This document shows, one piece after another, positions 23,710-29,129 of a stretch of DNA of 64,000 nucleotides. The number at the start of each line of letters is the position of its first letter. Position 1 is the stretch's first letter. The stretch spans positions 62,001 through 126,000 of the forward strand of contig CALZIK010000146.1 of assembly GCA_945787635.1 (NCBI GenBank), given 5' to 3'. A program made the position numbers and the translations under genes. This stretch comes from Thermoanaerobaculia bacterium (GTDB lineage: Bacteria; Acidobacteriota; Thermoanaerobaculia; Multivoradales; JAHEKO01). The notes beneath the pieces are model-generated. The model worked only from the letters and a program-made list of their open reading frames with translations. It was not told the DNA's origin and searched no databases.

Positions 23710-24051
23710 ATGGCAGCAAAGAAGAGAGCGACCAAGAAGCGCGCTACCAAGCGCAAGGCGGCAAAGCGCGCTCCGAAGCGCAGCACGAAGAAGAAGGCGA
23801 CCAAGAAGCGGGCCACCAAGAAGCGGGCCACCAAGAAACGGGCTACTAAGAAGAAGGCCAAGAAGAAGCCCGCGAAAAAGCGGGCCACCAAGAAGCGGGC
23901 CACCAAGAAGCGGGCTACTAAGAAGAAGGCCAAGAAGAAGCCCGCGAGAAAGCGGGCCACCAAGAAGCGGGCTACAAAGAAGAAGGCCGCGAAAAAGCGC
24001 GCTACCAAGAAGCGGGCCACCAAGAAGAAGGCTCCGCGGAAGAGAAAGTAG
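23710..24051 (+). CDS. Histone H1-like, Lys/Arg/Ala/Thr-repeat DNA-binding protein
   Basis: This 113-residue protein consists almost wholly of KKRAT, KKKA and KKPA repeats. It resembles the C-terminal tails of eukaryotic H1 and bacterial H1-like nucleoid proteins (AlgP, Hc1 and the HU tails of some phyla). There is no globular domain, signal peptide or acidic residue. A 72-bp (24-residue) DNA repeat is visible: GGCTACTAAG recurs at 23841 and 23913 in the same context. A strong Shine-Dalgarno (AGGAGG, 7-base spacing) and a strong terminator suggest high expression as a single gene. The likely role is chromosome compaction; binding to RNA or polyphosphate is possible. Confidence 0.88.
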   Translation: MAAKKRATKKRATKRKAAKRAPKRSTKKKATKKRATKKRATKKRATKKKAKKKPAKKRATKKRATKKRATKKKAKKKPARKRATKKRATKKKAAKKRATKKRATKKKAPRKRK

Positions 24052-24113: not shown

Positions 24114-24225
24114 GCGCGCAGTGTCTAGGCAGGATCGCGTGAGACCGTCCAGCTAGGGTCTGGCGGTGTTTTGACATATGCTTGCGGCCGGCGAAGGGAG
24201 CCCACCTCCTTCGTTTCCCCGTTAC

Positions 24226-24759
24226 ATGGACACGATCTCGCGCTTTGTTCTCGTCCTGTTCGTGCTTCTTGCCGGCGCCTGCCGGCAGGGCGAGCCGGAA
24301 GTCGCCCTGGCTCAGCCCGTAGGCTCCGCCAGTGTCATGCAGTTCGAGTTGGCCTCGCTGGAGGGCGGGACTCTTCGGTCGGTCGAGATGGCTCAAGAGC
24401 TGGTGCTCATCGACTTTTGGGCGACCTGGTGTGGACCCTGCCATCTGCAGGCGGACATTCTGGCCAAGATCTACCCCGAGTTGAAGCAGAAGGGCGTGGA
24501 GTTTCTGGCGGTCAGCCTGGGAGAGCCCGAGGCGGTGGTGAGGGAGTTCGTATCGAAGCGGCCCTTCCAGTATCCAGTACTGGTCGATCCGGAGGACCGC
24601 GTCGCCACGGAGTACGGGATCTTCGTCTTGCCAACCGTGGTGCTGCTGGATCGAGAGGGTACGGTCATGTACCAGCACGAAGGCATTTCGACCGCTGAGC
24701 GGCTTAGATCGGCGGTGAACGAGATTCTCGAGGGGCGTAGGCCCGCAGGCCGGCTCTAG
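24226..24759 (+). CDS. TlpA/ResA-like thioredoxin-fold lipoprotein
   Basis: This 177-residue thiol-disulfide oxidoreductase begins with a lipoprotein signal peptide (hydrophobic core FVLVLFVLLAGAC, lipobox LAGAC with Cys at residue 20). The active site is WCGPC (Cys69, Cys72) in a thioredoxin fold, with the cis-Pro segment FVLPTVVLLD. It is probably anchored to a membrane facing the periplasm, acting in disulfide reduction or cytochrome maturation. ATG 24226 is preferred because it starts directly at the signal peptide; an in-frame ATG at 24178 would add 16 unlikely residues. 24114-24225 holds no other feature. Confidence 0.88.
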   Translation: MDTISRFVLVLFVLLAGACRQGEPEVALAQPVGSASVMQFELASLEGGTLRSVEMAQELVLIDFWATWCGPCHLQADILAKIYPELKQKGVEFLAVSLGEPEAVVREFVSKRPFQYPVLVDPEDRVATEYGIFVLPTVVLLDREGTVMYQHEGISTAERLRSAVNEILEGRRPAGRL

Positions 24760-25052: not shown

Positions 25053-26114
25053 ATGACCACAACAGTACACATCGTAGGCACCGGCACGATTGGCGAACCC
25101 CTTATCGGTCTATTCGCTGACTTTGGGAACAAGATGGGCGTAGACGAAGTGACGTTCCACAAGCGAACGCCGCTCGAGGCCGACCGTCCCCGAATTCAGC
25201 ACCTGATCAAGCGAGGCGCGAAGCTCGCCGTGGATTCCGAGAACCGCTCAGACTTCAGCTCACTTGGTTACGAGGTCAGCTACGAGGCGAGCGACGCGAT
25301 CGAGCGGGCTACCGTAGTCATCGATTGCACACCTGCCGGCAACGAGAACAAGGAGCGCTACTACCAGAACATTTCCGGCCCCAAGGGCTACCTGGCCCAA
25401 GGAAGCGAGTTCGGCTTTGGTAAGCCCTACGCGCGGGGCGTCAACGATGAGGCACTGGTGCCAGGCGAAAACCGCTTCGTGCAGATTGTGTCCTGCAACA
25501 CGCACAACATCACGACGTTGATCAAAACGCTCTGCGATGACGGGGATTCCTACTGCCTCGAGCAGGGCAATTTCGTCTGCATGCGAAGGGCCAACGACGT
25601 CACCCAGAGCGGCGGCTTCATACCCGCGCCGTCACTCGGAGCGCACAGCGACTCGGTTTTCGGAACCCACCACGCCCGCGATGCGCACTATGTCTTTGAG
25701 ACCCTCAACCAGGACTTCGATCTGTTCTCGAGCGCCGTCAAGCTGAATACGCAGTACATGCACTCGATCTGGTTCCGCCTCGCCTACGGCCGTGACACGT
25801 CGGTGGAAGAGGCCGTCCAGCGACTTCGCGCCAACCCGCGAGTCGCGGTAACTGAGAAACAGCAAACCAACGTGGTGTTCAGCTTCGGTCGGGACCACGG
25901 CTACTACGGCCGGATCCTCTCCCAGACCGTGGTCTCGCTGCCGACTCTGGCAGTGCGTCGCGGCCGGGAGCTCTATGGTTTTTGTTTTACACCCCAGGAC
26001 GGCAACTCTCTTCTGTCGTCGGTGGCGGCGGCACTGTGGCTGATCGACCCGGATCGAGCCTCGGTGTCGACGCGCCTCGAGCCGCTGCGACAGTGGTTGT
26101 ACCAGGAGGTTTGA
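25053..26114 (+). CDS. Type II (archaeal-type) glyceraldehyde-3-phosphate dehydrogenase-like protein
   Basis: This 353-residue Rossmann oxidoreductase starts with VHIVGTGTIGEPL, a GxGxxG nucleotide-binding motif. The pattern then follows archaeal GAPDH: VVIDCTPAG near residue 90, catalytic Cys148 in VSCNTHN (archaeal enzymes have SCNTTGL), CMRRANDV (archaeal RRGADP), HHARDA (archaeal HHGPDV) and LRANPRV. The length is close to the archaeal 335-345. The Thr-Gly after SCNT is replaced by His-Asn, so substrate or cofactor use may differ. Shine-Dalgarno AGGAG precedes the ATG. The zinc-ribbon gene lies directly upstream. The family assignment is from motif alignment in mind, and the physiological reaction is not proven. 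Confidence 0.75.
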   Translation: MTTTVHIVGTGTIGEPLIGLFADFGNKMGVDEVTFHKRTPLEADRPRIQHLIKRGAKLAVDSENRSDFSSLGYEVSYEASDAIERATVVIDCTPAGNENKERYYQNISGPKGYLAQGSEFGFGKPYARGVNDEALVPGENRFVQIVSCNTHNITTLIKTLCDDGDSYCLEQGNFVCMRRANDVTQSGGFIPAPSLGAHSDSVFGTHHARDAHYVFETLNQDFDLFSSAVKLNTQYMHSIWFRLAYGRDTSVEEAVQRLRANPRVAVTEKQQTNVVFSFGRDHGYYGRILSQTVVSLPTLAVRRGRELYGFCFTPQDGNSLLSSVAAALWLIDPDRASVSTRLEPLRQWLYQEV

Positions 26115-26995: not shown

Positions 26996-28195
26996 GTGCC
27001 GGAAGCGGTGGATCCCAGCCGGCTGGTCGAGCTTACTGAGCTCGATGAGATCGAGGTCGAGATCGAGAAGCTGGTCGCCGGCGGCGACGGGCTAGGCCGG
27101 TACAAGGGCGTGGCGATTTTTGTCGCGCGGTCCGCTCCCGGGGACCGGCTCCGGGTCCGCATCGTCGAACGGCAGCCGCAGTACGCGCGGGCCGAGATCC
27201 TCGAGGTGCTCCAGCCGGGAGCGGATCGCCGGCCGCCACCTTGCGCGCACTTTGCCGACTGCGGCGGATGCAGCCTCCAGCATCTCGAGGATCAGGCGCA
27301 GGTCGAGTGGAAGGTCAGAGCCGCGCGTGAGGCACTGGATCGACTGAGCGGCCTCGAGATCGACGTTCCGGAGCGGGTCGTACGTGGCGATGCCTGGCAC
27401 TACCGCTTGCGGGCACAACTCCAGATGGACGGCGATCCCGGCGCCGCGCGAGTGGGGTATTTCGGTCGCCGCAGTCACGATCTGGTGCCGATTCGGGAGT
27501 GTCCGGTGCTGGCCGAGCCGCTCGAGGCCTTCGTGACCGAGCTTCCCAAGCTCCTACAAGAGCGCGTGCCGCGGCGCTTGGACGTGACACTGGGCGGCGA
27601 GGGAGAGCTCAGCTGTGGTCCGGCCTTACCAGGTCTGCCAACAGGAGGTGTCACTCGAAGAGTCGGCGATCTGGCCTATGAGTACGACGCACGCACTTTT
27701 TTTCAGGCTCACCGTGGCCTTCTCGAGGAGCTGACCGAAGCGGTGATAGGTACCGAACGGGGCGAGTGGGCCTTCGATCTCTACGCGGGCGTGGGCCTGT
27801 TCTCTCTGCCTCTCGCCAAGCTCTACAGCCAGGTGACCGCCGTCGAGAGTGATCGAATCGCGGTTCGCTATTTGCGCAAGAACGCGCGCCGCGCGCACTT
27901 GACCAACGTCGAAGTGGTGGATTCGGCCGTGGAAACTTGGATTGACCGGATGCCAAAGCACGCCGATCGCGTCATCGTCGATCCACCGAGGCCGGGCCTA
28001 GCGCTGCACGTCAGAGGGGCCTTGCGCCGACTTCGCCCATCGCGGATCACCTACATTTCATGTCATCCCGCGGCTCTGGCCAGGGACCTGGGCTCGCTGG
28101 ACCCGGATTTTGCCCTCGAGGGCCTGGTCTACCTGGATCTGTTCCCGCAGACGGGGCACCTCGAGATCGTCGCGCAGCTTCGCGCACGCGACTGA
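26996..28195 (+). CDS. 23S rRNA m5U methyltransferase, RlmD/TrmA family
   Basis: This 399-residue SAM-dependent RNA (uracil-5)-methyltransferase has an N-terminal TRAM domain (residues 16-72). An iron-sulfur motif follows with Cys83, Cys89 and Cys92 (C-x5-C-x2-C) and a fourth Cys in RECPVL. Then comes the Rossmann methyltransferase domain with DLYAGVGLFSLPLA and DPPRPGL, and the catalytic ISCHPAALARDL near residue 350. Most relatives read SCNP; His replaces Asn here. GTG 26996 is preferred because GGGGAG lies 8 bases upstream. RlmD, RlmC and TrmA cannot be separated by eye; the TRAM and Fe-S motif favour RlmD. Confidence 0.9.
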   Translation: MPEAVDPSRLVELTELDEIEVEIEKLVAGGDGLGRYKGVAIFVARSAPGDRLRVRIVERQPQYARAEILEVLQPGADRRPPPCAHFADCGGCSLQHLEDQAQVEWKVRAAREALDRLSGLEIDVPERVVRGDAWHYRLRAQLQMDGDPGAARVGYFGRRSHDLVPIRECPVLAEPLEAFVTELPKLLQERVPRRLDVTLGGEGELSCGPALPGLPTGGVTRRVGDLAYEYDARTFFQAHRGLLEELTEAVIGTERGEWAFDLYAGVGLFSLPLAKLYSQVTAVESDRIAVRYLRKNARRAHLTNVEVVDSAVETWIDRMPKHADRVIVDPPRPGLALHVRGALRRLRPSRITYISCHPAALARDLGSLDPDFALEGLVYLDLFPQTGHLEIVAQLRARD

Positions 28196-28199
28196 CTTT

Positions 28200-28433
28200 T
28201 CAGGCCGGAAGGCTGGCTGCCAAGGCGGTTTCGACCTCGCCGGGCTCCGGGAATCTCCCGGTGCTCTTTTTCGAATAGATGAGCCCGCCGTCCAGCTCGA
28301 CCTCAAAGACGCCGTCCCGCCCCTTGATCAGCTCGGGCTTCTCTCCGAATTTGCTTTCTATCTCGTCCGCCAAACTGGCGGCACGGGGGTAGTAGTTTCA
28401 GACGACGCAGTATTGAATGCTGATTCTGGCCAT
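28200..28433 (-). CDS. SelW/Rdx-family selenoprotein, Sec encoded by in-frame TGA
   Basis: Read from ATG 28433 the frame gives MARISIQYCVV, then TGA at 28400-28398, then NYYPRAASLADEIESKF, IKGRDGVFEVELDGGLIYSK and GRFPEPGEV, ending at TGA 28202-28200: 77 residues if the first TGA is read through. This matches the SelW/SelT/SelH-like Rdx family over its full length. TGA takes the place of the second Cys in the CxxC redox motif, giving CxxU with U12. A hairpin fitting a bacterial SECIS starts 12 nt after the TGA. The start has GGAGGA upstream and a TATACT -10 (28454-28449). SelW-type proteins are small thiol oxidoreductases. Decoding needs SelA, SelB, SelD and tRNA-Sec, none of which lie in this window. 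Confidence 0.85.
28364..28400 (-). promoter_or_regulatory. Sec codon and candidate bacterial SECIS hairpin
   Basis: On the minus strand the UGA (28400-28398) is followed by 12 nt. The hairpin CGU-g-CCGCC / GGCGG-ACG follows (28385-28377 with 28371-28364), with a single bulged G and apical loop AGUUU. An upper stem with one bulged base, a GU in the loop and about 11 nt of spacing from UGA are the features SelB recognises in E. coli formate dehydrogenase mRNA. Confidence 0.7.
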
Positions 28434-28514
28434 GATTCCTCCGTGCGGAGTATATCCGGAGGGCTACAACTCGGTATGCGGTATTCTGTCGAATCTCAAA
28501 GCAGAGTGGAGCCA

Positions 28515-29129
28515 ATGATGTCGAGTCGAAAGTCAGTTGATAGCGCGCATCTCGCAACGCTCGTGGGCGAAGACGAAAGGGTAGGCCGGATCGCCAAGCA
28601 CGTTCGCGGGCTGATCGAAGAGCTTGGGCTCGATCCGGAAGACCACAATCTCCGACGCACCGACGTCCGCGTGGCCAAGATGTATCTCGAGATGTTTCGG
28701 GGCCTCGAGGACGCGGCAGAGCCCGCGGTGACGACGTTCCCCAACGAAGAGAACTACTCGCACATGGTGATGGAGAAGGACATCCCCTTCTACTCCATGT
28801 GCGCCCATCACTTCGTGCCGTTCTATGGCAAGGCGCACATCGCCTATATTCCCGAAAGCCGGATCATCGGGTTGTCGAAGTTCGCCCGTATTCTGGACTT
28901 CTACGCGCGCCGGCCCCAGCTCCAGGAGCGGCTTACCGAGCAGGTCGTGTCCTACTTCGAGCGCGAGCTCAAGCCTCGGGGAGCTATGGTGGTCATCGAG
29001 GCCCGCCATCTCTGCGTCGAAATGAGAGGCGTCAAGAAGCCGGGCGTTATGACCGTCACTTCAGCGATCCGGGGTGGGTTTCACGAAAAAGCCGTTAGGG
29101 AGGAGTTTCTTGACCTGTTGCGAAGGTAG
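28515..29129 (+). CDS. folE: GTP cyclohydrolase I
   Basis: This 204-residue enzyme converts GTP to 7,8-dihydroneopterin triphosphate for folate (or other pterin) synthesis. YSMCAHHFVPFYGKAHIAYIP holds the zinc-binding Cys and the active-site His pair, and EARHLCVEMRGVKKPG holds the second zinc Cys and catalytic residues. The N-terminal helical part is also typical. Start: ATG 28515 or the adjacent ATG 28518, both close after AGTGGAG. A TATTCT -10 candidate is at 28482-28487. It diverges from the selenoprotein gene, 81 bp away, and is followed after one base by the GWxTD gene. Confidence 0.95.
   Translation: MMSSRKSVDSAHLATLVGEDERVGRIAKHVRGLIEELGLDPEDHNLRRTDVRVAKMYLEMFRGLEDAAEPAVTTFPNEENYSHMVMEKDIPFYSMCAHHFVPFYGKAHIAYIPESRIIGLSKFARILDFYARRPQLQERLTEQVVSYFERELKPRGAMVVIEARHLCVEMRGVKKPGVMTVTSAIRGGFHEKAVREEFLDLLRR

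Follow-up and report, generated by a model that had tools for sequence, protein, structure and literature searches.

The selW-like gene and its product

The window (the whole 64,000-nucleotide stretch that we analysed) carries on its minus strand, at 28203..28433, a coding sequence with one in-frame TGA (28398..28400). Read from 28433, the strand gives MARISIQYCVV-TGA-NYYPRAASLADEIESKFGEKPELIKGRDGVFEVELDGGLIYSKKSTGRFPEPGEVETALAASLPA-TGA. If the first TGA is translated as selenocysteine (Sec, U), then 28433-28200 encodes a SelW/Rdx protein of 77 residues, which begins with MARISIQYCVVU and ends with ALAASLPA just before the second TGA. Sec would be residue 12, in the motif CVVU. The first residue of this CxxU motif is the putative resolving cysteine, Cys9 (codon TGC at 28409-28407, in the region 28405..28409), which is invariant in our alignment A2. 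The second TGA (28200..28202) is the true stop, because the genes of relatives terminate at about the same position, with any of the codons TGA, TAG and TAA. A Shine-Dalgarno-like GGAGGA (28437..28442, minus strand) ends 3 nucleotides before the ATG, which is rather close spacing; most relatives have purine-rich sites before the start. Standard gene calling would shorten this gene to 11 residues, and it is a clean example of that problem.

The gene lies between two plus-strand genes. The divergent neighbour is folE, encoding GTP cyclohydrolase I (PF01227, 1.6e-66; stretch searched, 28437..29129), and the convergent neighbour, within 27038..28195, encodes an RlmD/RumA-like uracil-5 methyltransferase (PF05958 plus TRAM). 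Both neighbours are conserved: in the close family, the selW-like gene is flanked by a divergent folE and a convergent rlmD-like gene.

Profile searches, for which Sec was written as Cys, placed the protein over the cut-offs of three SelW/Rdx family models: Pfam Rdx PF10262 (3.5e-21; 75.6 bits against a curated cut-off of 22.6), TIGR02174 (1.5e-17; 63.7 bits against 34.2), and NCBIfam NF041051, "SelT/SelW/SelH family (seleno)protein" (2.1e-27; 95.2 bits against an equivalog cut-off of 88). NF041051 is matched by all 34 of the aligned orthologues, and the query differs from this family by sequence divergence alone. An earlier note, written from the sequence, had proposed a SelW-like protein starting at 28433 with the TGA at 28400-28398 read as Sec, and had suggested a profile check. 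The translation and the three models bear this out, and the start, the GGAGGA and all the conserved blocks that it named are present where it put them.

An AlphaFold model built from the 34 orthologues (mean pLDDT 86) has the thioredoxin-like fold of SelW. The CxxU motif follows the first strand (residues 4-9), and C9 and U12 (written as C12) are invariant in the alignment. The model matches the crystal structures of the bacterial SelW-related proteins 2p0g, 2obk, 2ojl and 2fa8 along almost its entire length (Z 14.2-14.3, rmsd 1.1-1.4), although their identity to the query is just 31-36%. Mouse SelW (2npb) is more distant (Z 9.3, rmsd 2.2). Among the solved structures, 2fa8 is the best match by sequence, and it has Cys at the position of Sec in the query. 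So the TGA stands at the place of the second redox Cys, as the earlier note had stated. Thioredoxins share the general fold and a redox pair, spaced by two residues, after the first strand. But with Z of about 7 and 6-17% identity, the query does not belong to the thioredoxin family.

We also scanned the window heuristically for other redox genes that are interrupted by TGA. Besides the selW locus there were three candidates, which we judged by eye, and only the selW locus was convincing. We noticed three other plus-strand genes in the window. Positions 24178-24756, a few kilobases from selW, encode a TlpA/AhpC-TSA-like protein with a thioredoxin fold and WCGPC. Positions 23710-24051 encode a lysine-rich repetitive protein whose AAKKRATKK-type repeats resemble histone H1 tails. 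And 25053-26111 encodes a 353-residue protein with a Rossmann-like start and the motif SCNTHN; it had no Pfam match at 0.001, and by eye it resembles type II (archaeal-type) glyceraldehyde-3-phosphate dehydrogenase.

A hairpin within the coding sequence

Downstream of the TGA, the minus strand can form a hairpin with the core CCGCC-AGUUU-GGCGG (28367..28381), which minimum free energy folding extends to about 28385-28364. The hairpin lies within the codons for A-A-S-L-A-D, in a coding block, PRAA(S/G)LA, that is conserved. In the model for bacterial SECIS elements (bSECIS), as given in PMC13188914, the loop has 3-9 nucleotides with G in one of its first two positions, the upper stem has 4-16 base pairs, the distance from the UGA is 16-37 nucleotides, and the minimum free energy is at most -7.5 kcal/mol. 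The hairpin agrees with this model throughout: it has the loop AGUUU, a core stem of 5 base pairs, an apical loop that begins 21 nucleotides after the UGA, and an energy of -13.3 kcal/mol (for a stretch that was chosen after we had seen the fold).

The pairing is also conserved. Across 38 diverse sequences, 96.8% of the cells are paired, and in four of the five pairs both partners have changed. In 500 shuffles, the observed covariation score was never reached, with the proviso that shuffling ignores the relatedness of the sequences. As a control, we slid the partner by 1-3 columns, and pairing fell to 20-58%. RNAalifold found the same hairpin unaided. The double changes come from loci that are labelled as Acidobacteriota, Deltaproteobacteria, Marinimicrobia and Calditrichaceae, and the alignment offers a clear picture of covariation in a bacterial SECIS inside a coding sequence.

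Could the selenoprotein be real and this hairpin be kept merely because it encodes A-A-S/G-L-A, while Sec insertion depends on some other or more extensive element? Four inner pairs are partly kept in the Cys homologues (described below), which would fit with this idea. Tests of energy were also weak: the 45-nucleotide stretch exceeds synonymous codon shuffles in stability by no more than a modest margin (mean z of -0.8), and the 81-nucleotide fold is unremarkable (z of -0.5). The support for the hairpin comes from covariation, not from energy. But the outer pair is absent from all eight Cys homologues, and the spacing, the loop G and the stem agree with the published model. Furthermore, since the stem is coding, we ran a test of wobble positions only, with the amino acids held fixed. 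With positions counted from the T of the TGA, offsets 20 and 32 are paired in 57 of 58 sequences, and offsets 23 and 29 in all 52; in both cases there are several types of pairs with identical amino acids. None of 20,000 permutations scored as high, although the sequences are related and so these are not true probabilities. Because synonymous third positions covary, a constraint on the protein does not explain the pairing, and we consider it quite unlikely that the hairpin is there just for its amino acids.

In one group of sequences, Ala-Ser-Leu-Ala is replaced by Val-Ser-Leu-Thr, and these two amino acid changes keep a U-A pair. This may have been a single event. The paired Ala-to-Val and Ala-to-Thr changes, with the stem still paired, are found in the hairpin-coding blocks of L093, L094, L096, L097 and L103. 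Here, residues of the protein would be coupled via the structure of the RNA.

Selenocysteine machinery and conservation of the TGA

The earlier note's reading depended on the genome having the machinery for Sec, and all of it is there: tRNA-Sec, selA, selB and selD. The source genome is 4.36 Mb in 203 contigs and is 97.7% complete, and we presume that its machinery genes come from the same cell. The tRNA-Sec scores 73 bits (gathering score 47), and ARAGORN assigns it the anticodon TCA (UCA). (A second match over the threshold, with 51 bits on contig C68, is a tRNA-Ser(TGA).) SelB scores 342 bits against a cut-off of 242, with nearly the whole model covered, and SelA scores 426 bits against 268.

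There are two SelD-like genes. The better one (357 bits; L016:1480-2529, on contig C151) has one in-frame TGA of its own, at SCAGU near the N-terminus, and when this is read through, the protein scores 362.9 bits against TIGR00476. SCAGU is presumably the active-site position, as judged from what is generally known about SelD proteins. Judging from its sequence, this selD appears to be a selenoprotein gene as well, so that at least one further gene in this genome would use TGA for Sec. The other SelD-like domain (L017, on contig C195) has no TGA and lies in an open frame of 864 amino acids. The SelD part alone matches TIGR04369 with 8.9e-59, which is under that model's cut-off. It is possibly an oxidoreductase-SelD fusion.

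We considered whether the UGA might be read as another amino acid, such as Trp, by near-cognate readthrough or by an altered code. Codes in which UGA is Trp exist in other bacteria, and reading through the UGA does give an intact protein. However, TGA is the normal stop codon of the selW-like gene itself and of many relatives, the solved Cys-type homologues have their redox Cys at the in-frame codon, the genome has the complete Sec machinery, and the hairpin fits the bSECIS model. We therefore view another amino acid as very unlikely.

The in-frame TGA is conserved among relatives. (The named close relatives are Acidobacteriota, and several are labelled as Thermoanaerobaculia or Holophagae.) Among 59 genomes (the source genome and its relatives up to the level of order), 56 encode the protein, and each main match has exactly one in-frame TGA; SelA is found in 54. 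Two well-covered genomes (G003 and G005) have selA but no SelW match; in these, SelW was either lost or lies in an assembly gap. We also read the codon directly in the fetched loci, and it is TGA in all 68 of the distinct Sec-type sequences. In L080, the DNA reads TGC CCG ACC TGA AGC, that is, CPTU with one residue inserted. (L081 could not be placed in this codon reading.) Across the phylum, 116 of 396 genomes have an Rdx match. With four short fragments set aside, all but eight matches have a TGA. The eight exceptions (L082-L089) carry Cys instead and belong to another subfamily, CTQCRWLLRAAW.

These data bear on whether a Cys-type SelW gene is decaying here as a pseudogene, with the TGA as a real nonsense mutation. 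Such Cys-type homologues do exist, both elsewhere in the phylum (L082-L089) and among the solved structures. But the same codon is TGA across orders and phyla, and the remaining frame is intact; decay would not strike one codon everywhere and leave a covarying hairpin behind. So a pseudogene is extremely unlikely, and the earlier note was right to argue against random decay. It had also named reads with TGC or TGT at this codon as a refutation, and neither occurs there in any close relative that we read. Although the Cys codons are just one base away, the chance that the TGA is a sequencing or assembly error is negligible, as independent assemblies of other species have the same TGA.

Proposed role and relation to known SelW-like proteins

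The in-frame TGA most likely encodes Sec, and the locus is almost certainly a genuine gene for a SelW-like (Rdx) selenoprotein in Acidobacteriota. The gene, the conservation of the TGA, the covariation of the SECIS, the full Sec machinery and the match to the fold were all computed. From these, we infer that Sec is inserted by the SelB/SECIS pathway. We propose that when the ribosome arrives at the UGA (codon 12), SelB with Sec-tRNA(Sec) would bind the hairpin 21 nucleotides downstream and insert Sec, which would yield a 77-residue protein with a thioredoxin fold and a CVVU site. This site most likely supports a thiol/selenol redox cycle. A peroxide, disulfide or sulfenate would be the oxidised substrate that the Sec selenolate attacks. 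Cys9 would then resolve the intermediate via a selenenylsulfide, and the protein would be regenerated by thiols of the cell, either glutathione-like ones or thioredoxin.

Published reports of bacterial SelW-like proteins that contain Sec go back to at least 2005 (PMC1088965). Such proteins also appear in PMC1794560, which counts selenoproteins of Acidobacteria too, and a SELENOW-like family is listed as PF10262 with CxxU (PMC13188914). Our protein is of the same family as these, with Sec as the second redox residue of CxxU and an in-frame UGA followed by a bSECIS, and it is not known to differ from them in function. The function of SelW-like proteins is described as unclear in PMC1088965, where the CXXU motif is taken to suggest a redox function and the protein is said to interact with glutathione.

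Our finding is thus a well-supported but ordinary addition to a bacterial selenoprotein family that has already been described and for which an NCBI family model exists. What is understood about SelW and about Sec decoding stays the same. The acidobacterial lineage is not discussed for this family in the passages of PMC1088965, PMC1794560 and PMC13188914 that we consulted, and as far as these sources go, the selenoproteins of this phylum are little described. Two further points are that the Sec form prevails in Acidobacteriota and that constraints on RNA and protein are overlaid. We tentatively suggest, with some doubt, that because the SECIS of acidobacterial SelW lies inside the conserved PRAA(S/G)LA block, the recoding RNA might have shaped the protein (as when Ala19 and Ala22 together became Val and Thr with the stem still paired), and that the Sec form predominates in this phylum while Cys forms are few.

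In the Sargasso Sea set, too, there are more Sec forms than Cys forms (48 to 7; PMC1088965).

The eight Cys proteins are not the only members of their subfamily, which is marked by the motif RAAWMAxELL. L090, L091 and L092 are Sec forms (CDDU) of it, while its other acidobacterial members (L082-L089) have Cys. This subfamily is a possible place for studying the exchange of Sec and Cys.
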